Assembly: GCA_003999685.1 (NCBI GenBank)
Contig: CP021222.1
Coordinates: 1,364,001 to 1,428,000, forward strand
From: Taiwanofungus camphoratus
Lineage: Eukaryota > Basidiomycota > Agaricomycetes > Polyporales > Taiwanofungaceae
Length of the DNA: 64,000 nt
Direction: 5' to 3'
How positions within the stretch are numbered: position 1 is the stretch's first letter; each line of letters starts with the position of its first letter. The notes below the pieces were generated by a model. The model did no database searches, was not told the DNA's origin, and was given only the letters and a program-made list of their open reading frames with translations. Positions 1 through 59,482 of the stretch are shown here, one piece after another. The translations under genes were made by a program, and so were the position numbers.

Positions 1-841
1 CAAAGGAAGAAGTGTGCACTGAGGGGTCTCTCTCGTACATAGTAAACTACCTCTGAATAAATAGGAGAGAGTGAGGTGAACTATTCTTGCGTGAAGTGAT
101 CCTTACAAGTCCGAAATGTGTACTAAAGTGCATGAGCTCTGAAGTGAACACGAGGAGGATAGAAACTAAATAGGAACTGAAACAGGGGAACTATGTCTGG
201 TAGAAAGGTGACCAAGTTCATTCATGAGGGTGGGATGACTATCAGAGAGTGGTCATGCACTGTGATCAACTGTTTTAGTGGGCTAAGAATGTACAAAGTT
301 TCTAGCAGCGGGACTTGTCCTAATCGAGGCAGGAGATGCTCTAAATGGGTAGAGGATCATATAGATGCGCCATAGAAGGACCTTATGGCATAGGATCGAG
401 ACCCAGGGGGTGTGCAAGGCTTCCTTCATAAGTCCAGCCTTCAGAACTTCAGACCGTTTTGGAGCCCATCAGAGATGCCTGCAGTCACAAGAGATTGGAG
501 AGACTTAGCTAAGCCTTTTTAGCTAAACCCAGGATGAGTGACGTGGTAGCTGGGGCCTGGACCTAATAGAACAATATTGGAGGGCTGGCCGTGTCTGATA
601 GCAGACTTAGCAGGAGTTAGAGACTTCATGGCTAGCATTCGAAGCTTTGTAGCACCTCGTGTGACTTCACAGGACTTCATAGGGTGTTAGAAGGGTTTAG
701 GAGGCAAAGGAGGTGTTAGGAGCATCATAAGAACCTATCCCTCCTGTCATAGGCTGTAGAAGAGTCATAGGATGGTCTGTGAGGGGATTAGAAAGCTCCT
801 AAAATCACAATTCAGAGCCCAGGAGACTACAGGACTCATCA
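1..841 (+). repeat. LTR-A family copy, left part outside the window
   Basis: This stretch matches the second half of the complete LTR-A units at 3370-5135 and 51340-53094 and ends in the same way, at ...ACTCATCA. Its left part lies before the window. It is the most altered of the three copies, and many positions that are CG in the other copies are TG or CA here. A 60-residue open frame at 193-375 falls inside it and is not shared as protein-coding sequence. I read it as a noncoding repeat. Confidence 0.75.
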
Positions 842-1319
842 ATGAACTCCCAGTATAGACTCCACGAACCGCCTGACCTCTTCTATAGGTCCTCACACTA
901 GTCAAATCTCGTGTACTTCGCTTTACAAACTTCAGAGTGTTAACCTTCTAAGCTAGCTAAAGACTTCAGAGAAGTCTAGCATTATTTTCCACTTATTTGG
1001 ACCTTTATTCCATTGACCTATTACTTCCTAGCTCTACACATCCTATGCAGTCAGATAGCGTGCTTTAGCAAAACCTTGAAGGACTTCGCAGATTTTTGAA
1101 GGACTTTGCACACTTCGGAGGATCTTGCAAGGTCTTTGGGATCATCTAGCATATAGGAGCAAGATCCTGTTGCACAAGACCCTTGACCCCTTACTCCCTC
1201 GCTCACAAAAACAAGACACATAGGTTTTCCGGTACCATACAAGTTGTAGCTCCCCTTCTCATATCCCCACAGTTCACCCCACTGCTTCTTAGCCACATTA
1301 CGGAGCACTTCCTAGGTCC
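842..1319 (-). repeat. Diverged inverted fragment related to LTR-A
   Basis: Read on the minus strand, about 1040-1319 follows the first 300 bases of LTR-A: CCTAGG near the start, then the GGGGTGA, GTTTTTGT and GGGTCAAGGGTC-like blocks in order. There are many substitutions and small length changes. The part from 842 to 1040 is more weakly similar. It is an older or different subfamily copy, cut on one side by LTR-A copy 1 and on the other by the foldback element. Confidence 0.55.
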
Positions 1320-1424
1320 CCACACAATCCAGTAAGAAAACCCCATTACAACGGGCGAATAAACACTGAGTTTGGCCCGTTGTGAATGGGCCATCCGACG
1401 TCGGCCGACCATTGAAACAAGCCC

Positions 1425-1804
1425 CATTGCAACAGGTCAGCCGGGTGTGAATGTATTCCCATTGCAACGGGTTGGCCGGCCATGGAAGTAGCCCATTGCA
1501 ACGGGTTGGCCGGGGATGGGACCAGCCCGTTGCAACAGGTCGGCCGGCTATAGACCCATCCCATTGCAATGGGTCAGCCAGGCATGAATATATTCCCGTT
1601 GCAATGGGTCGGCCGGCCATGGCATTATCCCATTGCAACGGGTCGACTGGCCATAAGACCATCCTGTTGCAACGGGTTGGCCGGCCATGGCACTATCCCA
1701 TTGCAACGGGTTGGCTGACCATGGCATTATCCCGTTGCAACGGATCGGCCGGCCATGGCACTATCCTGTTGCAACGGGTCAGCCGGCCATGGCACTATCC
1801 CGTT
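1425..1804 (+). repeat. 34-bp tandem array, left arm, outer part
   Basis: About eleven units of 34 bp (two of 35) follow one another. The consensus starts CCCGTTGCAACGGG, a perfect 14-base palindrome, followed by a GGCCGGCC palindrome and CCATGG. The array continues after the LTR-B insertion at 2353-2490. Most differences between units are at CG dinucleotides (CCCGTT, CCCATT, CCTGTT). The long frames on both strands across this array are by-products of the repeat. Confidence 0.9.
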
Positions 1805-1809
1805 GCAAT

Positions 1810-2352
1810 TGATACAATTTCTTTTATCGCATATCTTATCGGTCGGACCTCAGATCGGTCCCATGACCTTTCGCTTCTAGGACGGGCCTCGGGTAGGCCC
1901 AGCTTCTTCGCACAGCATCTTGACTCATCGCTGCTTATGGTACGGGCCCCGGTTACTCATGGACTCTGACTCATATTGGGCCCCGCTTACACATTCCATC
2001 TTACGCTTACTGATTGCTAATACGGTCCAATGACTCATATCGCCTTACTTACGCTTACTCATGCTGATTCTTAGACCACGTGCCATGGTCCGTGCGCAGA
2101 GTAGAATACGTATATAAGGTCCTGTACTTTGTAGGTCGGACCTTAAGTTCGATCTGGTTACCAAGTAGCTAGTTACCACTAGCAATCTTATACTCGTATC
2201 TTGCGACCTCTCGCTTCATACCTGAGTACTCGCTCGACTCTATCGACTTCGCCCAGGAGGACATACGCAGTGTCCATAAAGCCTCACTACTATCTTCAGT
2301 AGCCAGGTCCTCACGTTTGAGGCTTTCCGGTCGTTGATACCAGCTTGTATCA
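1810..2352 (+). mobile_element. Solo LTR-B (Ty3/gypsy family) with 5-bp TSD
   Basis: The 543-bp unit begins TGATACAA and ends TTGTATCA, a perfect 8-base terminal inversion. GCAAT flanks it on both sides (1805-1809 and 2353-2357), splitting a 34-bp unit of the foldback arm. The same 543-bp sequence is the 5' LTR of the gypsy element at 54030, which fixes its family. It contains a TATATAAGG-like promoter box near 2111. It is a recombination remnant without internal region. Confidence 0.92.
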
Positions 2353-2490
2353 GCAATGGGTCAGCCAGCCATGGCACTATCCTATTGCAATGGGTTGGCC
2401 GGCCATGACATTATCCCATTGCAATGGATCGGCCGGCCATGGCACTATTCCATTACAATGGGTCGGCCGACCATAATACTAGCCTGTTGG
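2353..2490 (+). repeat. 34-bp tandem array, left arm, inner part
   Basis: Four further 34-bp units continue the array after LTR-B and run into the 21-bp array at about 2485. The phase is kept across the LTR insertion once the GCAAT duplication is removed. Confidence 0.85.
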
Positions 2491-2990
2491 TGCTAGTTAG
2501 AAACATTTACTCACTGGTCAGAAAGATGTCAATGCTGATAAGAAACATTGTGGCACCAGTCAGAAACCTTTCAGTGCTGGTCAGAAATATTGCGGTGCCA
2601 GTGAGCAACCCTTCAGCACTGGTCAGCAACTCTTTGGCACTGGTCAAAACATTTTGGCACCGGTGAGCAACCCATTGGTGCCAATCAAAACATTGCGGTG
2701 CCGGTGAGCAACCCTTTGGTGCTGGTGAGCAACCCTTTGGCACCAGTCAGAAATATTGCAGCGCCAGTCAAAACATTACAGTGCCGATGAGCAACCCTTC
2801 GGCGCTGGTGAGCAACCCTTCGGTGCCAGTGAGCAACCCTTCGGCACCAGTCAGAAATATTGCGGCGCCGGTCAAAACATTGCGGCACCGGTAAGCAACC
2901 CTTTGGCATCAGTCAGAAATATTGCGGCGCCGGTCAAAACATTTCAGCACCGGTCAGCAAGTCTTCGGTGCCGGCGGGGAACATCCCAGC
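2485..2990 (+). repeat. 21-bp tandem array, left arm
   Basis: About 24 units of 21 bp alternate between two variants, GTCAGAAATATTGCGGC-like and GTGAGCAACCCTTCGGC-like. Because 21 is a multiple of 3, frames through the array stay open and give a seven-residue period (for example VRNIAAP and VSNPLAP). The matching array on the right arm is in the opposite orientation at 7080-7540. I see no start context or conserved flanking protein that would make it a gene. Confidence 0.85.
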
Positions 2991-3010
2991 ACCAAGCCTT
3001 GGGAGCTGGT

Positions 3011-3370
3011 CTGATAGGTGGTACAGCCCCGGGATCCCATCTTTGTTGGTCCTTTCACAATTTGAGTAACAATGCTCATTTTAGTGTAATTGGCACCTCT
3101 GGAGGGGATTCCCACTTTGCCGGGAATTGTGAAGCCAGGACCCTTCAGCGCCAGTGGGGAACATCCCAGCGCCGTGCCTTTGGACCCGGTCTGATAGGTG
3201 GCACAGCCCCAGAATCCCATCTTGGTCAGTCCTTTCACAATTTGAGTAACAATGCTCATTTTAGTGTAATTGGCACCTCTGGAGGGGATTCCCACTTCAT
3301 CAGGAATTGTGAAGCCGGGACCCTTCGCTGCCGGTTGGGAACATCCCGGTGCCGTGCCTTGGGACCCGGT
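3011..3370 (+). repeat. Two ~180-bp units, left arm
   Basis: Two direct units start at CTGATAGGTGG (3011 and 3191), exactly 180 bp apart, and end with a GGACCCGG block. A third, more diverged unit lies beyond the LTR-A insertion at 5136-5290. Four inverted units lie at about 6346-7080. The units hold no recognised coding sequence. Confidence 0.85.
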
Positions 3371-5135
3371 GATACGACCTAGGGGACCCTGGTACCTAGG
3401 GAGTGCTCCGCAACGTGGCTGTGGGGTAGTGTGATAACTGTGAGGGTGTGGGGGTAGGAGCTACAACCTGTATGATACCGGGAAACCTGTATGTCTTGTT
3501 TTTGTAAGTAGGGGAGTAAGGGGTCAAGGGTCCTGCACAACAGGATCTTGTTCCTAAGTGCTATACTATCCCTAAGGCCTTGCGAGGCCCTCCGAAGTAC
3601 GCGAAGTCCTTCGAGATTCTGTGAAGTCCTTCGAAGTTTTAGCTAAATCACGCGAGCTGACTTCGTAGGCTGTATAGAGTTAGGGAGCAATAAGCCAATG
3701 GACTATAATTTCTACTAAGCGGCAGAGGGTACGAGACTGCTGCGAAGTCCTTTTAGCTAGAGTTAGCTAAAGGGTGTAAGGCTTAGAGGTTTGTTAGAGC
3801 GAGGGGGGCGAGGTTTGGCTGGCATAGGAGACTTGTAGGAGAGGTCGGATGGTTCGGAGAGCTAATACTTGGAATAGGAATGAGGGAACGAGGTTGCTGG
3901 AAGCTCTGAAGTGTCTGATGATGTTGAGGTGTGGGTCGGAGAGTTCGAGGGCGTAGAGAGATGTACTATAGCCTGTAATGAAGGCTATGGGGGAGTCGTA
4001 GGGTTATTCGTAGGACGTAGGGATGACGCAACGTGAGCCTAAGGGTATAACTAAGGCGGAGGCCCACCGGATAGGTGCTATAAGAGGTGCTGAAGGGCAC
4101 GAAGTCACGGCGACTTCGTAGATCGTAGTGCGTAGTTCGGGAAGCGTAGACGTAGTTCGTAGATATATCGCGAGCGTAGACGTAGTTCAAAGGTACTGAA
4201 ACGGAGCTGGGGTGGAGACTTAGGGACCTTGGGACCGTTCCTAAGGTTGTACTCGCGGCGCTTTCCTGAGATCGGAGCTACAGGGGAACTGGTATTCCAA
4301 AGAGAGAAGCGTACACTGAGGGGTCTCTGTCGTACATAGTAAACTACCTCTGACTAAATAGGGGAGCGTGAGGTGAACTAATCTTGCGCGAAGTGATCCT
4401 TACGAGTCCGAAATGTGTACTAAAACGCATGGACTCCGAAGTGAACACGAGGGGGATAGGAACTAATTAGGAACTGAAACAGGGGAACTACGAACGGTAG
4501 AAAGGTGACCAACTTCATTCACGAGGGCGGGATGACTATCCGAGAGCAGCCATGCGCCGTGATCACCTATCTTAGCGGGCTAAGAGCGCACGAAGTTCTT
4601 AGCAGCGGGACTTGGCCTAATCGGGGTAGGAGGTGTCCTAACTGGGTGGAGGGCCATATGGATACGCCCTAGGATGACCTTATGGCGTAGGATCGAGACC
4701 CATGGGGGTGCACAAGGCTTCTTAAGTCCAACTTCCAGAACTTCGGACCGTTTCGGAGCCTATCGGAGGTAGCTGCAATCACAAGAGCTAGGAGAGACTT
4801 AGCTAAGACTTCTTAGCTAAGCCCAGGATGAGTGACGTAGTAGATAGGACCTAGATCCAATGGAACAGTATGGGAGGGCCGGCAGTGTCCGATAGTGGAC
4901 TTAGCAGGAGTTAGGGACTTCGCGTCTAGCATTCGAAATCTCGTAGCACCTCGTGTGACTTCGCAAGACTTCGTAGGGTGTTAGGAGGGTTTAGGAAGGA
5001 GAGGGGGCATTAGGAATATTATAGGAACCTATCCCTCCTGTTGTAGGCTGTAGGAGAGTCTTAGAGTGGTCGGTTGGGGGATTAGAAAGCTCCTAAAATC
5101 GCGATTCGGGGCCCAGGAGGCTATGGGACTCATCA
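3370..5135 (+). mobile_element. Solo LTR-A, complete copy (~1.77 kb)
   Basis: The unit begins TGATACGACC and ends GGACTCATCA, with TGAT...ATCA terminal inversion. It is flanked by CCGG(T) on both sides, and it cuts a GGACCCGGTCTGATAGG stretch of the 180-bp array. A second full copy lies at 51340-53094 and a partial one at 1-841. The ends, the flanking duplication and the lack of coding sequence fit a solo LTR. It is long for a fungal LTR, no internal region is seen here, and the superfamily is unknown. Confidence 0.65.
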
Positions 5136-5290
5136 CCGGTCTGATAGGTGGTACAGCCCCGGGATCCCATTTTTGTTGGTCTTTTCACAATTTATGTCAC
5201 AATGCCCATTTCAGTCATTATGGCATATTTAGGGAGAACTCTCTTTTCACTATGAATTGTGTGGTGAAGACCCTCTAGCACTGACATGTG
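5136..5290 (+). repeat. Diverged third ~180-bp unit, left arm
   Basis: After LTR-A the sequence resumes with CCGGTCTGATAGGTGG and follows the 180-bp unit with many changes. It pairs with the innermost right-arm unit at about 6346-6490, which carries the same differences (ACAATTTATGTCA, for example). Confidence 0.75.
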
Positions 5291-6345
5291 CTTCACTGAC
5301 ATCAGAGGTTGTGATGGAATCATTCAGGGGTTCCAGCCCTGGATCCCATCTGTCCCATCCTTTCCATGATTGAATCTGCCTGTGTTCTATAAAAAATTAC
5401 ATAAACACCAGAGATATTGCAGATTTTGCTGTTCTGGAACCTCTTGATACTGATTTTTTTATCTGTTAACATATGAGTCTATGCTCTGTCACTGTATTTT
5501 TCCCTGCCCAGTCATATATTCTATATATTGAGAGCGTCACTACTTTCTGTATCAATATGTGACATTATAAAATTGTATCTTCAGAATAGATTGCAAGGTT
5601 CACTCCATTCATATTGCCTGACACTGTCCTCCAATATTCAATAATGTCAACAATGTTCTGTGCTCTCTAAACTACATCTTGTTCAAATATTGTATCATAT
5701 ATGAGCTCATAACAGGCAAAAAGCACATTAGATGATTGCATATGAGACACATTTGACAGATTGCACTTCATGTTTCCTGAAAAGGAATGTGGCTCAGTCA
5801 CACTTGCAGTTACAGCCACATCTGCTTGCACTTCACTTCAGACATGCTCAACTTGAATAAAATGGATCCTCACTCATTACATTATGTATCTGTTGAAATC
5901 TGTACCATAAAAGTCAAATATATGATTGTGTACATTATTCAAAATGAAGATATTCAACAAGCCAATTCAATATATGTTCGCAAGCATATAAACTCAATAC
6001 ACAGCTTTCTTGAATGCCAATTTCAGAGCCATCTGCATTCAAAGATGTGTATTCAATATAACAAAAAAGAAGTGAAATCAGGTATATTATACACCACCTG
6101 AATCAATAATGGTCTGAAACAATAGGATTTTGTCAGCAGGGTTTAAAACAACCAGCATTCAAATACAATAGAATATTGTGAAATAGCATGACAACTGAGT
6201 TAATGTTTTCTAACAATCATCATGAACATCAATCAAAGGTGGGGAAATTCAGAACAGTATCAGTGCTGAAAGCCAGTGAAGATGCAATCCCAAATTGTGA
6301 TCACCTATTCATCCCAGTCAGGACACCCAACACTGAAAAGCACAA
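5290..6345. other. AT-rich loop between the foldback arms
   Basis: About 1 kb of AT-rich sequence separates the arms. A 104-residue frame at 5787-6101 (+) and a 65-residue frame at 6188-6385 (+) are the only longer ones. Neither resembles a known protein, and neither has introns, signal or motifs. I see no transposase, tRNA or structured RNA. Confidence 0.6.
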
Positions 6346-7080
6346 CACCAGCATCAAAGGGTCCCAGCCTCACAGTTTCCAGTGACAAGAGCATCCTCAG
6401 AGAAAACATCATTTTTACTGAAATGGGCATGATGACATAAATTGTGAAAAGGCCAACAAAGATGGGATCCTGGGATTGTACCACCTATCAGACCAGGTCC
6501 CAATGCATGGCACTGGGATGTTCCCCACCAGCGCCGAAGGGTCCCAGCTTCACAATTCCTGGTGAAGTGGGAATCCCCTCCAGAGGTGCCAATTACACTA
6601 AAATGAGCATTGTTACTCAAATTATGAAAGGACCAACAAAGATGGGATCCCGGGGCTGTACCACCTATCAGACCGGGTCCCAAGGCATGGCACCAGGATG
6701 TTCCCCACCAGCACTGAAGGGTCTCAGCTTCACAATTCCCGGCGAAGTCAGAATCCCTCCAGGGGTGTTGAATTCACTGAAATGGGCATTGTGACATAAA
6801 TTGTGAAAGGACCAACAAAGATGGGATCCCGGGGCTGTACCACCTATCAGACCGGGTCCCAAGGCACGGCGCCGGGATGTTTCCCACCGGCACCGAAGGG
6901 TCCCGGCTTCACAATTCCCGGCAAAGTGGGAATCCCCTCCAGAGGTGCCAATTACACTAAAATGAGCATTGTTACTCAAATTGTGAAAGGACCAACAAAG
7001 ATGGGATCCTGGGGCTGTACCACCTATCAGACCAGCTCCCAAGGCTTGGTGCTGGGATATTCCCCACCAGCACCAAAGAC
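6346..7080 (-). repeat. Four ~180-bp units, right arm
   Basis: The CTATCAGACC landmark recurs at about 6487, 6667, 6846 and 7026, spaced 179-180 bp, in inverted orientation to the left arm. The outer three are close to the left-arm units. The innermost matches the diverged unit at 5136-5290. Confidence 0.85.
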
Positions 7081-7540
7081 TTGCTGACCGGTGCTGAAAT
7101 GTTTTGACTGGCGCTGCAATATTTCTGACCGGTGCTGAAGGGTTGCTTACCGGTGCCGCAATGTTTTGACCGGCGCCACAATATTTCTGACCGGTGCCAA
7201 AGGGTTGCTCACTGGTGCTGAAGGGTTGCTCACCGGTGCTGAAGGGTTGCTCACTGGTGCCATAATGTTTTGACCAGCGCCACAATATTTCTGACCAGCA
7301 CCAAAGGGTTGCTCACCGGCGCCGCAATGTTTTGACTGGCACCAATGGGTTGCTCACCGGTGCCAAAATGTTTTGACCAGCACCAAAGAGTTGCTGACCA
7401 GTGCTGAAGGATTGCTCACTGGCGCTGCAATATTTCTGACCAGCACTGAAGGGTTTCTGACTGGTGCCACAATGTTTCTTATCAGCATTGACATCTTTCT
7501 GACCAGTGAGGAAATGTTTCTAACTAGCACCAACAGACTA
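7080..7540 (-). repeat. 21-bp tandem array, right arm
   Basis: Inverted counterpart of 2485-2990, with about 22 units of the same two variants in the same alternating style. It runs outward into the 34-bp units at 7545. Confidence 0.85.
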
Positions 7541-7544
7541 GTAT

Positions 7545-7664
7545 TATGGTCAACCGACCCGTTGCAACAGGATAGTGCCATGGCCGGCCGACCCATTGCA
7601 ACAGGATAATGCCATGGCTGGCCGACCTGTTGCAACAAGATAATGCCATGGCCGGCCGACCCGT
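7545..7664 (-). repeat. 34-bp units, right arm, inner part
   Basis: Three to four inverted 34-bp units are present here, interrupted by LTR-C. The right arm carries about five units in all against about fifteen on the left, so the array length has changed since the arms formed. Confidence 0.85.
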
Positions 7665-8235
7665 TGTTACAAGGCAGTAATGGTGCGAACATACATTTTC
7701 ATTTCTCTTCACTATACCAGACTAGCGGGTCGTGTACACTTACAATTATCACCATCATTCCTGACGGGCTGACCGTCACCCACCTGGTTATGGACTGTTC
7801 CTCAAAAGGGGCCACTCGGGCCTCTGACTTATGGACACTTAGGTGCTGGTACCCGTGGGGGTGAGGGCTGGCTTGCCCTAAACCCACCATAGTACTTAAG
7901 GGGTTGGCTCACTGCAGAGCACCCCAATCTTGTCCTCCTTAGTTACACTGTGTACTTTGGTGCCGTCATTACCATTTGTACTTTATGACTGGGCTTAGGC
8001 CTCTATACCTTCGTCTATTCAACGGGTTGCCTTAAACCATCTATATCCTTGTGACTACACTAGGACTTAGGCTGTGACTTAGCCCGCAACTCTCTCGAGA
8101 CTGTTGGGCTAGCGGTTGAAGACTTAGACGTGTACTCGTTGTCAGCCAGGCTGACTCCTCGTTTACACTTCACGCCTGACTACTCAACGACCCCCTGTCA
8201 TGGTAGTCACCTACGGGCGTAGACCCCCTGTAACA
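7665..8235 (+). mobile_element. Solo LTR-C (Ty3/gypsy family) with 5-bp TSD
   Basis: The 571-bp unit runs from TGTTACAAGG to CCTGTAACA. CCCGT flanks it on both sides (7660-7664 and 8236-8240), splitting a 34-bp unit. Near-identical copies lie at 53295-53866 and 61635-62205, the last as the 5' LTR of a gypsy element. Copies differ mainly by C/T and G/A changes. Confidence 0.92.
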
Positions 8236-8386
8236 CCCGTTGCAACGGGATAGCGCCATGGCCGGCCGACCCATTGCAATGGGGCTTGTTTCAATGGTCG
8301 GCCGACATTGGACAGCCCATTCACAACAGGCCAAACTCAGCATTTATTCGCCCATTGCAACGGGGTTTTCTTACTGGATTGTGTGG
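8236..8386 (-). repeat. 34-bp units and outer terminus, right arm
   Basis: The arm resumes after LTR-C and ends with the inverted outer terminus GGATTGTGTGG. The stretch at about 8290-8386 is the inverted copy of 1320-1415. Confidence 0.85.
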
Positions 8387-9889
8387 TCAAATGGCATCGA
8401 AGACATGACTAAGGCACTAGGGTCAAATTAGAGCACTATGTGGGGCCTAGAAGGGCCTTGCACCTATCACTGTCTGGGCACAAGTTGTTCCCCTTGTTAC
8501 TGGTTTGACGACTCTCACCTCAACTTGTTTGTGAAACCACCAATTATGTTATTTAAATAGTATGCTACACTCGTATATCAGTGCTAACTTACACCATTAA
8601 GGTGAGTTGAGAGTCTCGCTAATGCAATTTATGGGGTGCTTATACACTCATGAAAGTCCACATATATGGAGCTGAACAATGCATATATGCATTAAAAAGC
8701 ATAGTTTTGATCTTGTGGTGAGTAGCCATTGTCTTAATAACACAGTAGGTTGATTATACTCATCTTCACTGGCAATGAGAGCCAGGACTCATGAGGCCAC
8801 TGTGAGAGTAGCTACAAGGAAGCCTTTTGAGTACACTACAGACTTGGATTTGGCTCTGTAAGCCCTTCTAGATAGGTCACTGATGAAGCTAACATCCATC
8901 AAGAATAGTCTTCCTTGCAGACTACCCATATGAGAGAACACATTCCAAACTATGTCAATGCTTTCACATCTTCTGTCATGATGGTCTCTAACCTCCCACC
9001 TGAGCACAGCATACAGCATCACTGGCTGCACCTTCCTGCAAACCATGTGCTACCACTGCTTTGAGCACACACTGCTCAACCCCACCTTCAGTGTCCTTCC
9101 TTCTGTTCCTGCTTGCCTTGTCCACACTCAGGCATGCCATTGCCTCACTTGCACTCTGAGGTCTACACTGCTGCTCACATGCATGACAGGCTGACCCCAC
9201 ACACTGCACATTCCTCATGCACCTTCCTGCTGTCATTGCACTTGTATTGTGCATGCTTAGGGCTGCAATTTCAGTACATTTTGACTCATGCTTTATTTGT
9301 TACCAAACTGATATTCTACTCTGTAATACAGGTCTGTCAATTATACGCAAAACCTCTACAAAGAGAGGGGACAGCCAAGGGATGGTCTGCAGACTGTCCC
9401 AAATGTGGTACTATGTGTTATGTGAGACAAATGGGGTGTATATGAAGTGAGCAGGGCATTCCCAATGTATTTGGAATTGCCCTGGTTGTAGTAATTAGAG
9501 TATGCCAATCTGGGGTAGCATATCATAATTGTGAAACAGTCTGAATTCTTGGGGCAGGTTGCAGAGAATCAGAGTGCTTCCAATGAATCATATGGTCACG
9601 AGCTTCCTTGTTCTCCCACAATGTGCCCCGACGGGATTTTGACTGGGCTTGAGACTCCGAGATTTACGGCATGTCGGTTACATAATGGAGGTCTGAGGGA
9701 CGGAGACTGACGAAGCGTATCCGTCTTTCTCGGACTAAGGTCGGAGAATGAAAGGGCGCTGGCGGAGGTTAGATTATAGATCTAGTGCGCCCTCTGCCCA
9801 GCCACAACGCCCCTCGCGGTAGTAAGCAGGTTCGCCATCGACCACTACAACGACAACCACTGTACGCGTTCATTGATAATATTGCCGCC
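8387..9889. other. Intergenic stretch with no supported gene
   Basis: Between the foldback element and exportin-1 there is about 1.5 kb without a convincing gene. Open frames of 60-110 codons on both strands (8789-9254, 9113-9450) lack family resemblance. A short CPKCGTMC-like cysteine cluster is encoded at about 9390-9420 but is not supported by flanking sequence. The last 250 bases before 9890 are richer in GC and probably contain the exportin-1 promoter and 5' UTR. Confidence 0.5.
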
Positions 9890-47678: not shown

Positions 47679-49954
47679 TGGGCTGAGAAACATACACTAT
47701 CGCTTTGTGTGATGCACCACGATGGAGTATACATATCCACTAGTCGACTGCCACATCCACTTATACGTGTCAGACGATATCAGGATAACCGTCTATGTAC
47801 GTATCAAAACATGGGAGATAAACCGGTGGCACTGTATCTGCCCTTAGTGGTTATTCAAAAGTATGTAGCTTTGGGGGTTAAAGCTCGGATTTCCAAAGAT
47901 TCATATAAATATCGCACCGGGTGAGATGTAATTCGTTTTGTATCAGCAATAAGAAAAACGTGAGATGATAGCTCTCTACTGAGATGCTCCATCGAAGTTA
48001 AACAATCATTCGACATGGCTTTTCAATTAAATTAAGATCATAGCATGAATGATTCTGAAGTTGGTAAATGCACAGGTGAGCTTCTTGGACATGTGAGTAT
48101 TCTCGGGAGGATGACGCTTGCTCCGCGCGGGTCCAGAGTGGTGCTGAATCTGCTGATGCGCACGCAAGCGGTCCCTGTGAGAATGATCGGACAGAATCCG
48201 AGTCGATATTTCCTGGAAAACTTGGTGACTAGACACGAGGTGTCTGTCCAACAGCTATGTCGACGGAATTGAGCAGAGCTTACTCAGGAACCTCGCTTGC
48301 TGCCGGTAGAGAAGCGCGGATTAGCCTTGTCAATGCTCTATGAATCCTTCCAGCGGCAGGAAAAAATCATAGTTCGCATCGAAGGGTCAGATTACTTTCG
48401 TCTCACCGCGGCGCTGGACGGCACTTTCAAAGGATTGAGAAGAGGCAGCGAGCTTGCACTTTACGACTTAGCTAGTCCCAGTCAGTTATTGGGCCTAGAC
48501 GTGAGAAAACATGACAGTGAGAACACACGCAAGACTTACGTGGAGTAATCTATAGTGGCCAGCGGCAGTCAGCAGAAGGTCCAATGTCAAAAACAAAGCG
48601 GCTGCTGTGCAGGATCTTGGGGCATATCTTCATTCAATCACTATAGTAAGCCTTGCGCAAGAAATTGCCAAAGAGACTAAACAATCCATTGCAGTAGGTC
48701 ATCAGAGTGATTGCGACTAGGACCGCGGCCAATGTCAGATAATTAATACAGGACGAAGGTACACCTAGACGAGAACTGTAGGGCAGGCCCTGACTGCGAA
48801 ACCATAGATCGTCTTCTGCTAGTCGACCAGCCGGTTCTGAAAGTCGACAGAGCCCGGCCCCAGTTCTCTGCACGTCATTGATTCAGCATACTCGATAGCT
48901 TTCCTTCCTCTAAATGATTCACAATGTATTTCTTGCTGGATCCATCCGGTTCATCCTAATTCTGTCATCAATGCATTATTCTCTGCAGCCAACATGCTAC
49001 ACTTGCCATATGTCTACTAGTGTAGCACGTGAGTAGAGCCACGAAGAGCAAAAATATCACGTCTCAAACGAGCAGGGACGTATTTAACTTGAACAGGATG
49101 CTTTGCAAAATGATGGAGCGAAAACCTTTTGGAGCGTCAAAGCCAAGCTTATGTACTTTGAAGCGATCGAATAGCCGATGATGGTTGCAGCCACCGACGC
49201 GTAGCGTGTTTCTCATGTGAGTCGAGATCAGACAGCAGACGGACCAGCTTGAGTTCGCTTGAACACTCGAGTAAGTACTTTGTCTCAGTACCACCAGTGT
49301 GGACGATCCTCCTGCTCGGGGTGTGGGTGTGTAATGCTTTGATAGGCCGGAATGTGGATCCCGCTTTGACCCCAGGTGTCTTCACTGTAACGATGTTGCG
49401 AAAGGCCTGGCCTCCAAAATCCAACAACATTGTACTGATGATGATGATGATGAGTTCAATTTACGTGCTGCGGGCGCGTAAGTGCCTATGATGCACGATC
49501 TACTGATGTACCTATGTGTAGTATACTACTTCCACCTCAACAAAGAATGTACTAAGTTTTAGCTATGTAATTCTAAAATTTGTGTGTGCTTGTATGTTTG
49601 TCAGGTTTCCGGCAATTTAATGCAAGAGAGCCCAATTCTAAACCTGCCGTCCATGAACAGTACGATGGTACTGAGAATCTTGTCATCTTGCGGTGGCAGG
49701 AAGCTGGTCGGTGGTCCCCCACTTCCTGTCAAAACTCCTCGGGTCTCTGAAACCGGCAAGCATGCAAGTACACACAGCGGGAAAGGTGTGGTATGGTAAA
49801 GAAATATACTATGTGTCAAGGTGGTGTTACGGTGAGGTGATCTGGAAAGACTGGATGGCTAGCCCGAGGATGCGAGCAGCTACGACGCATCAGTGTTGTA
49901 TGAAGGAGAGTATCTGGAATGAGGTAGTTAGCAATATTCCGTGTACCTGGATTG
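47679..49954. other. Intergenic stretch with no supported gene
   Basis: About 2.3 kb between the MITE and the LINE. Frames of 60-95 codons occur (48297-48548 and 49149-49430, for example) without family resemblance or plausible splicing partners. A GAT/ATG microsatellite of about seven units lies at 49437-49454. The part next to 49954 may include the 3' end of the LINE, but no A-rich tail is visible. Confidence 0.45.
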
Positions 49955-51340
49955 TTACCTGTTCTTAGTGTTGTAGTATTCGAAGCAACCTGTAGCTTGT
50001 ACAAATTTCACTGTTGCTTTGAAGTGCTTCGGGTTCCCTAGAACAGCTTTGATGGAGTTAGTGCTTCTGCCAATGGCTATATGAAGTGCTTGTCTTTGTT
50101 TGTGGAATCGTCGACATAGTAGAAGAAAGTGGTTGATGGTTTTGGGTGTTTGACAGACTTCGCACAGGGCCGTTTGACTTTGTTTGATTTTCTTCAGGAA
50201 GCAGTTGAGCGCCACTGCGCCAGTGCAAAGTTGAATCAGGAGACTAGTTCCCTGTCTGCTAAGTGATGAAAGAGCTTTGAAAGTATGGTGATTTGGTAGA
50301 TCAGGATCAATTTTACTTAGCTTAGTGAATCTAGGCAATTTCTTCCATAGCTTAATCCACTCATCCTGACTGGTAACCTTGTGCGCTGCTTTCATTGCCA
50401 CTATGCTCTTTGGTAGCTTAGTGTGTAGAAGTGACGGGATGTCATCGCAGCGTGAACTGTGTCCATTGGCTGCTAACTTCGCCTCTTGGTCTACATACTC
50501 GTTGCCTGGTACGTTGTGATGTCCTGGTGTCCAAGCTATGTGTATATGGAGGTCTCTGTAAGTTAGTCTTAGCTGGTGGATCTCTTCGTGAATGGCGTCA
50601 AGAAGGTATTGTGCTGGTTGCCTTCGGTTTTGTCCTAGTGCCGTTATGGTCGACTGGTTGTCCAGCGCTATAAGGATTGATCTGATCTGGCATTTTAGTG
50701 TTCTTAGCATAGACTTTATAAGATGCACTGAAAGTAGTACACCAACAGTTTCACCTTCAAAAACTGTGTGTACCTTATCTGAGCCTAGGTGGAAGTATAG
50801 CATTGGTTTGTTGGGCATGTTAAAGGCCGTCACTGCCACCCCTATCTTGCCATCTATGCCTGATCCGTCAGAGAATATTTGCAAGTCGTCCATGCATGTG
50901 TGAATGTATTGGGCGGCATCATCCTTTGATTTGGCTATGTGGGTGGTGAAGCTAGGTGACCAGTTGGGCAGTTTCCTGATGGGGTCTATCATTTCAACTT
51001 TTTGTGGTTTCATTCAGAACGATTTAAGGAGCTCGTGAATGGTGGAACAGTGATGACATGGGTAGTATCTCGAGCAGTGTAGGACTATTGCATGAAGTGG
51101 GTGTGATTGGGGTAGAGAGCAGAGTTGTAAGCATTCCTTGAAGCATGTGTGATTGAGTCAGATTGGTATGGGAGGGATATCAGCGTGGAGTTCTAGCAGG
51201 TCAGTAGTGGTACACTTGAATGCCCCTGTAATGAGACAGCATGCAAGGCGTTGTAGCTTTCCTAGTCGTTTAGCAGTGCTGACTGATCCCTTTGGTAGCG
51301 TTCTGTCAGTGATCATGTGAATGGGTTCGTACCATACAGT
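49955..51340 (-). mobile_element. LINE 3' part: RNase H and C-terminal region
   Basis: A 352-residue frame at 49955-51013 carries an RNase H domain: QIFSDGSGIDGKIGVAV (first Asp), the FEGETVGVLL Glu, LIALDNQSTITALG (Asp) and WTPGHHNVPGNEYVDQEAK (His/Asp). After it comes a terminal cysteine/histidine stretch, CEVCQTPKTINHFLLLC. The RT C-terminal portion follows upstream at 51014-51340 (WYEPIHMITDRTLPKGSV). RT followed by RNase H on one strand is the order in fungal LINEs of the I/Tad group. The element continues at 53095-53294 and 53867-54029, separated by insertions. Its 5' portion is not in the window. The frame upstream of the RNase H part is interrupted by stops, so the copy is dead. Confidence 0.88.
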
Positions 51341-54572: not shown

Positions 54573-57500
54573 AAAGATCGAACTTACGCTAAGTCGCCCC
54601 TAGTCTTATCTAGTAGGGCTAACCGTTAGACATCATGTCTACCATCGAGACAGTCGACCCCACCGCTTGGGGATTGCCGACTCAAGTAAACAACGCGCTG
54701 CTTCTGTACGATCGTCTTCGTTGGACTTTTGTTGACCAGAACCTCAATCCGATCTACCCGAACTCCCCACTCGCGTGGGTAAGGACAATTTCGGCTCGAC
54801 GAGCACAGGAGAAATTAGCCTCCTATTTCAGACGTAACCCTCCGCCAGACGGAAGAGACCCAGCTGGTTTCTTTCCCACATCAATACCTTCGACACCGTT
54901 GATAGCCACTCCGACCACTCCCACATGCCCATCACTTCCTTCCACACCAGTAACACCCACCACCCCTACCACGATGGCTACTATCGCAACAATGACCAGG
55001 GCGGAGCTCGAGGCGCTCATAGCGCACCTTTCAGCGCAACAGCAACAGGGGAGTCGACCCCTTGAGCTCGACATTCCTGCATCGGAGCCGTTCACCGGGC
55101 AAGGAGAAGATCTGGAGTGTTTCCTCCAGCAGGTGGAGCACTACCTCACTGCCACCAACAATCAAGGGTTAAGCGATGATGCAAAGATCGCTTACACAGT
55201 CGCTCTCATGAAAGGAGGGCAGGACGCACGTATCTGGCGCAATACATTTTACGAACGGGCCGCGGGAGGGCATGCTCCCTACGCTAGCTGGGACGTATTC
55301 AAGGCGAGCTTGCGACTCGCGTTCCCCGAGCACGAAGGAGTCCAGAGGGCTCATCAGGTGCTAATGGAGTTGCCGGCCAAGCAACTAAACAAGAAGACCA
55401 GGGTCAGTACAAAGATGTACGTAGGGAGGTTCCGACTCCTGGCAGAGAAGGCCAAGTTAAAGGACGCTTTCACGAGCCTCCAAGGCCAACGCACCGAGAA
55501 CGATTACCCCACACTGAGGGCAATCTTCATCAAAGGTCTGGACCGCCAGATCTACACGACACTCGCGGGCCGCACCAATACGGAACGACCCAACTCCATG
55601 GAAAAATGGTACACTGACGTTCTCCATCTCGACGCCGTCTATAGAGGGATTGACCAAACCCTTTCGACCACCACTGACGTCGACTACGGCAAACCCATGG
55701 AGGTGAACGCACTTGTTACCCCACGTCCCACGCCGTTCACCAAGAAGTGAGAAGACGGATGTAACCTTAGCGAGAAGAAGAGAAAGTACCACATGGACAA
55801 TCATCTATGCTTCTACTGTCACAAGGAAGGACACACGGTGCGCAAGTGTCCGAAGAAGACGGCCAAGTTAGGCCAAAGGAATACCTCGAAGGAACCCGAG
55901 GCACGATCCCCCATGGATTTCTGCTCGTACATCAAGACGCTCTCGTCGGATGAGAAGAGGGCGATGTTCGAGGAGTTAGGAGGATTTTTAAAGGGACAGG
56001 GTGAGCCGACGCAACCACTGCCCATATCCATTTCACTGTCCCGCATCGTACTTGTAGTTCGGAATGACAGAGCCCTTCACATTCCGATTACTGTGGGACG
56101 AAAAGCCGTCGAAGCCCGCGCCTTTATCGATAGTGGCGCATCGGAAATATTCATGCATCCACGATTTGTTAAGGAACACAAGTTACGGACTGAGGCACTA
56201 CCACACCCAATACCGGTGTTCAACATGGACGACACTGCCAACAAGCAAGCGCTCATTAACAGACAAGCCTTGCTATCGTACAAAATCGGGAATGAGCCCC
56301 GGTTTGTCAAAGCATACGTGGCCAGTATAGGGAACGAGGATGTCATCTTCAGACATACATGGCTCAAACTTGAGAACCCCAGTATCGACTGGAAGGGGGG
56401 TCATGTGGAACTGAAGCACCGCATGACCCTGCAAGAGTCTCGAGAGTGGAAGAAGGGGATCATTGCGCAACGAGTAGTGTGACTGGAGCTGAAGAAACTA
56501 GCCGAACGAGAACAGGAAGAAGCCCTGGATCCCATGCTAGACTATGAGGTAGACTGGTCAGCACCCCCTTGTTCACAAGTAGTGGCATTCCTCGCTGAAC
56601 GAGACAAACGCCTCAAGCAACAATGGCAGCCCACCATTGAGGAGGTAGAGGATGAAGGAGACTTCGAGGTGGTCGACACCATGTCTCCTGTCCTGCCGAC
56701 GACAGACATATCTAGGCAGACGGCACACCGCGACATCCCAGTCACACCCCTGGTAGAAGAATCGGTCAATGGTATCACACTGGATCAGGCGATGGAAACG
56801 ATCGACGACGATGAACTGGTCATAGTGTTCATCGAGGGAGATGATCAGATCATGACATATGGACGGGACTCGCACCCGGCGTATCGAGACGCCCCGCTTA
56901 TGGAAAAGAAGTACCCTCTCAACGGAACTTATTGTCGTCTCGAAAACGGTCTTATCTGGCAGGTCAAGCACGACATCAGTCGACTCACCACGTCTACAGA
57001 ACTCGCTATCAAGGAACACGCCAAGAAAGAGGAGAAACCGGTCACGGAACTCGTCCCCGAGTACCTCCATGATCTCCTCCTGGTGTTCGACAAGGCCAAG
57101 GCAGCGAGACTTCTCCGACATTCGGAGTTCGACCACGAGATAAATCTCAAGCCGGATTTTAAGGACTTCAAGCAGTCGACGTATCCTCTCAACTGGGATC
57201 AACGAGCGGAACTGGACAAGTTCCTCGAAGAGGATATAGAGAAGGGGTACATCCGACCGTCCAAATCGCCACTCGCAAGCCCATTCTTCTTTGTGGATAA
57301 GAAGGACGGCGGATACCGACCATGCCAGGACTACAGGGAACTCAACAAGGGAACGATCAAGGACAGATACCCTCTTCCCCTCGTAACGGAACTTCTGGAA
57401 CGCCTCAACAACACCACGATCTTCACAAAGATGGACCTTCATCAGGGATACAACAACCTTCGCATCAAGGAAGGAGACGAATGGAAAGCGGCTTTCGGTG

Positions 57501-59482
57501 TTCCAGCAGCTGGGGAAGGACCTCCCTCGTTCTACGAACCCCTGGTAATGTTCTTCGGGATGTGCAACTCACCGGCAACATTCCAACGGATGATGAACAC
57601 AGTCTTCGCAGACATGCTCAAGGAAGGATGGTTGGCAATCTATATGGACGACATCCTTATCTACTCGACAGACCCCGAGGAGCATAAGAAGCGGACACGG
57701 CGAGTTATCGAACGACTGAGAGATACCGATCTGTATCTCAAACCGGAGAAATGCAAATTCGACGTGCAAGAAGTCGAATTCTTAGGCATGATCATCAGAC
57801 CCAGACAACTCGCCATGGACCCAGTCAAGGTAGCCGGCATCAAGGACTGGCTGATACCTAAGAACCTCAGGGAGGTTCGGTCATTCATCGGATTTGGGAA
57901 CTTCTACTGCCGGTTCATACATCGCTTCTCGCATCTGGCCCAACCTCTGGTCTCGCTTACGCGAAAGGACATTAAATGGCATTGGGACGATGAACAGCAG
58001 GAAGCTTTTGAGGCATTGAAGAAAGCCTTCCTGGAACAACCGGTTTTACAGATGCCTGACCCGGAGAAGCCATTTGCGTTGGAAACGGATGCATCGAAGT
58101 TCGCCACGGGCGCCGTCCTCAGGCAAAAAGACGACAACGGCGATTGGCATCCATGCGGTTATATTTCCCAGAGCATGACGCCAGCGGAACAAAATTATGA
58201 CGTCTATGACCGAGAACTCATGGGCATCATGAGGGGACTCAACGAATGGAGTCACCTCCTCATCGGAAGTCTGTACCCAGTCACGATTTATAGCGATCAC
58301 AAGAATCTGACGTACTGGAAGACGGCACGGAATCTTAATCGAAGGCAAGCACGATGGGCTCTTCGCTTGTCCGAATTCAATTACAGATTAGTTCACGTCC
58401 CGGGCACACAAATGGTGCAAAGCGACGCGCTCTCCCGGCGCCCCGACCACGACAACGGTTCATCAGACAACCAGGATGTAACCGTCCTACCAGACAAGGT
58501 ATGGGCAGCAGCAATCAACACGAGTCTCAGAGCTTTCATCATGGAAGCATGCGTAAATGACTCAGTGTATATGGAAGGGATGCGCAATGCACAAAACGGC
58601 TCAAACGACCACTGGACAATTCGAGACGGAGACCTCCTCTACGATAATCGGGTATATATTCCCCTGGACGAGGATCTATGACGACAAACGGTCTCGAATT
58701 ACCACGACCTCCCCTCCGCCGGCCACCCTGGAATTCAGAAAACCCTCTCGTCTAGTCGACGAGACTACTGGTGGCCTGGAATGGCTGACTTCGTCACACA
58801 ATACGTCAAAGGTTGCGGCACTTGCCAGCAAATGAAAGTTAACATGCACCCCACCCGACCGGCCCTACTCCCAATCAAATCCGCGCAGCACGCCACTCCG
58901 TTCAGTGCATTCTGCGGCGACTTCATTACGGATTTGCTGACTTCGGAGGGCTACGATTCAATTTTGGTCGTTGTGGATCATGACCTTACGAAGGGGGTAA
59001 TTTTCATTCCATGCAACAAAACGATTGACGCATCAGGAACAGCCGAGGCATTATATCGTGAGGTTTACAAGTGGTTTGGTCTTCTGGACAAGATCATTAG
59101 CGATCGAGGACCACAGTTCGCATCAAAGGTATTTCAGGAGCTCTGCCATATGACCGGAGTCAAGTCGGCTATGAGCACAGCGTTCCACCCTCAAACGGAT
59201 GGAGAGACGGAACGAGTCAACCAGGAATTGGAGATCTACCTGCGATGCTTCACGAGCAACAACCCGGACAATTGGTCGTCACTGCTGGGCTCAGCACAGT
59301 TCGCTCACAACTTGCGTGAGCACTCTACAATCAAGGCGTCACCCTTCAAGGTCATGATGGGCTATGAATCTCGAGGGATTCCCGTCGTACACCCCGGATC
59401 GGACACACCGGGCCCTGCTTATCGACTGCGGAACTTGCAGAAGATTCGGGAAGACGCACACTCAGCAATGGAGCTAGCACAG
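54030..59482 (+). mobile_element. Ty3/gypsy element with LTR-B, fossil, interrupted
   Basis: Parts in order: the 5' LTR-B (54030-54572, identical in length to the solo copy at 1810); a gag frame (54635-55750) with a Thr/Pro-rich linker; a CCHC knuckle (CFYCHKEGHTVRKC) near 55810; an aspartic protease (FIDSGASEIFMH) near 56130; reverse transcriptase with YMDDILIY near 57640; RNase H (LETDASKFATGAVL) near 58080; and an integrase zinc region and catalytic core (58690-59480; [13 protein letters not shown]). The order protease-RT-RNase H-integrase defines Ty3/gypsy. The copy is broken in a few places, is cut at 59482 by another element, and has no 3' LTR in view. CATGT precedes the 5' LTR, as the expected target duplication. 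Confidence 0.93.

Follow-up and report, generated by a model that had tools for sequence, protein, structure and literature searches.

Is the large inverted structure at positions 1320 to 8386 of the window (the 64,000-nucleotide stretch of Taiwanofungus camphoratus contig CP021222.1, positions 1,364,001 to 1,428,000, analysed here) a mobile element, and if so, which enzyme moves it? Comparison of its sequence with the host genome points to a copy of a non-autonomous foldback family whose cut-and-paste movement very probably depends on the KDZ transposase supplied in trans by a TET+ transposon of 26-30 kb. We relate the family to a TET+ KDZ (Kyakuja-like) transposon because the ends, the 34-bp arrays and the 7-bp target site duplications (TSDs) are common to both kinds of element. 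The preliminary description of the locus, drawn from the letters of the stretch alone, had recognised a foldback; the present analysis extends it to ends held in common with a transposon that carries KDZ transposase and TET genes.

A dispersed foldback family

The proposed mirrored arms were borne out: they occupy window positions 1321-8385, with matching stretches of 569 bp at 89% and 399 bp at 90%, and their outermost 125 bp (1320-1444 vs 8262-8386) are 90% alike, identity reaching 98% at some places in the arms. Three tandem-repeat types, of period 34, 21 and 180, were likewise found in both arms in mirrored order, each arm running from the outside in through a terminus of ~125 bp, a 34-bp array, a 21-bp array and 180-bp units to a loop of 1,074 bp. 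Cut free of three nested solo long terminal repeats (LTRs), the element measures ~4.2 kb (4,186 bases as cut). The span first given, 1320 to 8386, was right in that an outer sequence is common to both arms, and the exact start is corrected to 1321 and 8385, where the element begins with CACACAATCC; the preceding base differs among copies. This plan of long inverted arms of tandem subrepeats flanking a loop is that of the foldback type and recurs in eight copies.

Searches of the host assembly (33.2 Mb, 15 contigs, designated C with a number) with the outer terminus and with the loop, as the preliminary description had suggested, recovered other copies with the same ends. The outer 125 bases have at least 41 genome matches, the window's own two included, and the loop is found complete eight times, counting that of the window, at 94-100%, with one further partial match at 76%. 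Every one of the 53 matches listed for the 180-bp unit and of the 18 listed for the 21-bp array falls inside the eight loop-bearing copies, in both arms; the two halves of the element, which might have occurred separately, thus stay together, all eight full loops lying with both kinds of inner arm repeat. The partial loop match belongs to a ninth element (C5:1731367-1736756), without a TSD, which agrees with the others in its ends and 34-bp arrays (12 and 26 cores of the 34-bp unit) but has its own 21-bp and 178-bp arrays; by its sequence organisation it is a second foldback subfamily on the same plan.

Ends, target site duplications and unoccupied sites

Two types of end bound these elements. 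The outermost type A, CACACAATCCAGTAAGAAAACCC (a 23-base pattern), has 32 genome matches with at most two mismatches and type B, GAGCCCATYCAGTGAAAAACCC, has 19, the reversed control giving 0 for each. A search for a common 7-mer in the flanks of the 51 ends, taken in every one of the 1275 possible pairings, gave seven pairs that match at 7 of 7 positions, where ~0.08 would be expected with random 7-mers, and six of the seven are adjacent facing ends. Neighbouring ends that face each other within 35 kb form 17 pairs; a 7-bp TSD is present in 6 of 12 A-B pairs and in none of the five A-A pairs. A perfect 7-bp TSD flanks four loop-bearing copies (C11, C4, C10 and C5:1860580); the C8 copy has LTR sequence in place of its outer right arm and so was left out of the TSD scoring.

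The empty sites that the preliminary description had proposed to look for were found for three of the four TSD-bearing copies, namely C11, C4 and C10, which the search covered by joining the flanks of each copy with one TSD copy and seeking matches across the joint. At every one of the 40 places that were scored, out of 119 candidates, the C11 joined flanks align across the joint over equal spans of 298-300 bases (90-92%); the insertion lies within the first open frame of a retroelement that the window also contains (500/500 bases, 90%, no gap). The joined flanks of C4 match across the joint at window 49789-50272 (77%), and those of C10, an insertion inside a reverse-transcriptase frame, at C14:961243-961418 (77%, 176 bases). 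Retroelement frames occupy window 54623-58678; the first corresponds to the C11 site without its insertion, and the later one has reverse-transcriptase and RNase H domains.

Some ends occur in duplicated surroundings. At C5:1508051/1521344 and C4:2510605/2531174, A ends are paired in inverted orientation and their flanks are identical (30 bases compared), the flank identity of the C4 pair extending 594 bases at 100%; both pairs are probably inverted duplications around ends. Three B ends (C9:1158883, 1234252 and 1384129), two of which belong to TET-bearing stretches, have an identical outer 30-base flank and are probably products of segmental duplication.

Long KDZ/TET elements with the same ends

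The size of the long A-B pairs led us to guess a KDZ transposase, which was then sought by Pfam domain search. The host genome holds 15 matches to KDZ (PF18758) and 11 to TET/JBP (PF12851), and neither family was matched in 14 control genomes. Eight of the KDZ matches are found 6.0-15.6 kb inward of an A end, every one directed to that end, and nine of the TET/JBP matches are found 1.2-3.6 kb inward of an A end, every one directed away; some of these patterned matches are segmental duplicates, and for one of the eight KDZ matches, C5:1730232, a B end intervenes before the A end. Two long elements, C13:229429-255314 (25.9 kb) and C12:1033415-1062933 (29.5 kb), carry KDZ and TET genes between A and B ends and are flanked by perfect 7-bp TSDs, so that the ends of the foldbacks are also those that bound elements with a KDZ match. 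Ten open frames of these two elements were scanned, yielding one KDZ (2e-41), one CxC2 (7e-24) and one Tet_JBP (6.9e-19) match. Cores in 34-bp phase come after the A ends of both elements and, in the C12 element, after the B end as well. No loop-bearing copy contains any of the 15 PF18758 matches; hence the foldback can be at most a non-autonomous member.

The window copy

The features of the window copy, with the evidence on which each was placed, are as follows.

1321-1444, plus strand: left terminus, outermost type A, CACACAATCCAGTAAG... (arm comparison, genome matches, end-pattern search)
1457-1809, plus strand: 34-bp array, left arm, outer part (tandem-repeat analysis; cores counted)
1810-2352, no strand: nested solo LTR, TSD GCAAT, foreign to the element (LTR comparison and TSD)
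2353-2489, plus strand: 34-bp array, left arm, inner part (tandem-repeat analysis)
2490-2962, plus strand: 21-bp array, left arm (tandem-repeat analysis and genome search)
2963-3369, plus strand: 180-bp units, left arm (tandem-repeat analysis and genome search)
3370-5135, no strand: nested solo LTR, TSD CCGG or CCGGT, foreign to the element (LTR comparison and TSD)
5136-5283, plus strand: innermost partial 180-bp unit, left arm (arm comparison and genome search)
5284-6357, no strand: loop, 1,074 bp (genome search, CpG count, loop comparison)
6358-7078, minus strand: 180-bp units, right arm (tandem-repeat analysis and genome search)
7079-7540, minus strand: 21-bp array, right arm (tandem-repeat analysis and genome search)
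7541-7664, minus strand: 34-bp array, right arm, inner part (tandem-repeat analysis)
7665-8235, no strand: nested solo LTR, TSD CCCGT, foreign to the element (LTR comparison and TSD)
8236-8261, minus strand: remainder of the 34-bp array, right arm (read by eye; cores counted)
8262-8385, minus strand: right terminus, type A like the left one, whereas in relatives with a TSD one of the two ends is type B, GAGCCCATYCAGTG... (arm comparison, genome matches, end-pattern search, end pairing)
953-1320, no strand: left flank, resembling the LTR at 3370-5135 and stopping 22 bp before that LTR's end
8386-8474, no strand: right flank, a ~240-bp dispersed repeat, M, entered part way, so that its inner portion and its end are present

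Both ends of the window copy are of type A, and its flanks, AGGTCCC and GTCAAAT, form no TSD, whereas the six adjacent TSD-bearing pairs are all A-B; the window copy is therefore rearranged. The earlier picture of a mobile foldback stands for the element, but this copy is not a clean single insertion. When its flanks were joined, none of the 46 matches listed crossed the joint (40 of 632 candidates scored). Repeat M, which ends in CACCTATCA, occurs near several KDZ-type ends.

The loop was also considered as a captured gene or RNA, a candidate that was set aside: no Rfam family was found in window 1-9500 at gathering thresholds, and the sole open frame of at least 100 residues in the loop has 106 (protein families were not searched with the loop). 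Its CpG observed/expected ratio is 0.06 and that of TpG+CpA is 1.67. Each of the eight loops holds 0-6 CpG, and transitions form the majority of differences in every loop pair. Because the loop copies agree with one another, most of the CpG loss appears to be older than their spread, and methylation-driven decay is its likely cause.

Unit numbers, loop orientation and likeness of the arms

The number of 34-bp units, counted as 14-base cores in the left and right arms, is 15/6 in the window copy, 14/8 in C11, 13/11 in C4, 9/18 in C10, 6/10 in C5:1860580, 13/6 in C5:1600263 and 5/8 in C9. Array numbers thus vary as the preliminary description had supposed, both between the arms of one copy and among copies; it was also correct that the window arms are unequal, although its figures of about 15 against 5 are replaced by 15 and 6. 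Each 34-bp repeat holds a 14-bp near-palindrome, CCCGTTGCAACGGG. Palindromic symmetry of this core was found in 132 of 338 units, compared with 112 +/- 8 after shuffling (52 of 5000 shuffles equalled it; 3 of 341 units were excluded). Selection for symmetry was dropped as a candidate, and the excess was given no weight, the units of an array being related.

Relative to the A-to-B direction, the loop lies in plus orientation in two of the four TSD-bearing copies and in minus orientation in the other two, which is probably explained most simply by exchange between arms. To compare arms within and between copies, 353 overlapping arm windows were cut, of which 261 were kept after LTR windows and matchless windows had been dropped. 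The partner arm was the best match in 100 of the 261, compared with ~17 if random (100/266 with LTR windows kept), most clearly in C5:1860580 (26/36) and C8 (22/28). In the window copy it was best in 9 of 35 arm windows, at 89.9% to the partner vs 92.0% to the best other copy. Arms are homogenised within some copies only.

Proposed mechanism and rival explanations

In the mechanism that we propose, the KDZ transposase would bind the termini and 34-bp repeats of foldbacks and long elements alike, while the arrays would lengthen and shorten through unequal exchange. The mirrored arms could pair with each other and with those of other copies, and this pairing would invert the loop, homogenise the arms of some copies and join ends from different insertions. 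The window copy, with its two A ends and no TSD, might have arisen by such joining, for example by a deletion fusing two nearby insertions.

Several observations weigh against this explanation. Seven of the 15 KDZ and two of the 11 TET matches fall outside the A-end pattern, and seven of the ten frames scanned from the long elements are without a family. Foldbacks and long elements have only the terminus and the 34-bp array in common, and the 21-bp, 180-bp and loop parts of the foldbacks are without a source in the sampled parts of the long elements. Three loop-bearing copies are without a TSD (the window copy, C5:1600263-1603625 and C9:1399157-1402832), and some elements are segmental duplicates, as at the C9 ends with identical flanks, so that the counts are partly non-independent. 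In the six copies other than C5:1860580 and C8, similarity to the best-matching other copy slightly exceeds, on average, similarity to the partner arm. Finally, C9:824020-824445 and C12:973026-973443 each contain both flank repeats of the window copy, ordered as in the window and spaced ~186 bp apart, so that the missing TSD of the window copy may reflect a local target deletion, not the joining of distant sites.

This last observation bears on how the window copy was formed. A distant chimera as its sole origin was favoured at first, the flanks being two different repeats, and was weakened by the same-order repeats; in opposite order the flank repeats are found at C10:1145314-1145845. A likeness of 6 of 7 bases between the left flank of the window copy and the flank at C5:1603625 was dropped, since ~1.7 such pairs are expected by chance. 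Either a deletion may have fused two neighbouring insertions into the window copy, or an insertion may have been accompanied by loss of target DNA; we prefer fusion because it would also account for the two A ends. In a rival view, A-A copies are not recombination products but are themselves a form able to transpose, which inserts with no TSD and deletes target DNA. Both A ends are flush with the breakpoints, and the ~186-bp spacing of the flank repeats at two places is what a target deletion would leave; we nevertheless consider such a form improbable, given the contrast in TSDs between A-A (0/5) and A-B pairs (6/12) and the position of the C9 A-A copy between LINE-like and gag-like sequences (identified by eye; unconfirmed by Pfam).

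The remaining rivals concern mobility itself. That the arms were made by a local head-to-head inverted duplication on site, and were never mobile, would agree with the lack of a TSD at the window copy and with arms that are nearly identical in places (98%), but eight copies with the same arms and loop lie on several contigs, four have 7-bp TSDs and three of these have unoccupied counterparts; the TSD-bearing copies elsewhere leave this origin with next to no probability. Movement by another transposase that makes 7-bp TSDs (e.g., hAT or P-like), with the ends common to KDZ elements through chance capture, might be entertained given the 7-bp hAT elements reported in rusts in the sections of Kojima (2025, PMC12730594) drawn on here, yet the long KDZ elements agree with the foldbacks in their A/B ends, their 34-bp arrays and the length of their TSDs, and we regard it as very unlikely. 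Mobilisation of the foldbacks by the KDZ transposase is thus the explanation that we retain.

A 200-kb pair of ends

A B end at C5:1600263 and an A end at C5:1800230, ~200 kb apart, have the common TSD GATTGGC, where the chance expectation for such a match is ~0.002 (35 same-contig, rightly oriented A/B pairs). The joined flanks of this pair match in equal 243-base spans at C8:1331065-1331307 (94%) and C4:2324497-2324739 (92%). Because the TSD is common and the site is found uninterrupted at these two loci, the two ends derive from one insertion. Two origins fit, macrotransposition or later recombination into one element. In maize, macrotransposons form when the ends of two separate copies of Ac/Ds, of the hAT superfamily, act together, a behaviour that we only infer here and that would be one interpretation of the 200-kb pair. 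Ends belonging to separate foldback and KDZ copies could have acted in this way, the ~200-kb stretch being inserted as a unit by a KDZ transposase, but this is a tentative proposal that we think rather less probable than not.

Relation to known systems and significance

According to the sections of Kojima (2025, PMC12730594) used above, TET+ Kyakuja (KDZ) elements make 7-bp TSDs and occur in five orders of Agaricomycotina, and the ends of Kyakuja-1/2_LB are 5'-CA..TG-3' without terminal inverted repeats (TIRs). The elements described here resemble them (PMC12730594) in the KDZ transposase, the TET/JBP gene, one end beginning CA and the 7-bp TSD, which is present in four of the eight foldback copies and the two long elements and absent from the window copy. 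They differ in that the A-B elements are 5'-CA..TC-3' with ~100-bp inverted termini and 34-bp arrays, and in that a transposase-less foldback family uses the same ends. The transposon class is Kyakuja-like and not Kyakuja because of its CA..TC ends and inverted termini, as against CA..TG ends without TIRs, the transposase being known here by Pfam KDZ and CxC2 domains alone. The excerpted text of PMC8290104 places the TIR motifs of KDZ and Plavaka elements in its supplement. No foldback KDZ family is described in the titles and abstract openings surveyed, a scope outside which subscription journals and Repbase lie.

Foldbacks of comparable form are known from Drosophila. In the extracts of Delprat (2009, PMC2775673) and PMC10990002 considered here, Galileo, of the P superfamily, likewise has long inverted arms, 7-bp TSDs and middle segments in opposite orientation, with ectopic recombination swapping TSDs between copies; it differs in its transposase superfamily and insect host, and its inversions are proven against uninverted chromosomes. 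Tetris of D. virilis, as portrayed in the abstract of PMC4079207, is also an apparently non-autonomous foldback, with ~220-bp tandem repeats in its arms and ends common with another element, but one array type is named there where three occur here, no autonomous partner is identified for it in that abstract, and it supplied satellite DNA.

With this family, the TET-carrying group of fungal transposons gains a transposase-less passenger with defined ends, a TSD and presumed binding repeats, so that small constructs could serve to test its transposition and the part that methylation and TET play in it. The 200-kb end pair offers a test of the capacity of KDZ ends to move large pieces of a chromosome. 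Our results also suggest that rearrangement driven by foldbacks, a process known from insects, occurs with an unrelated transposase as well.

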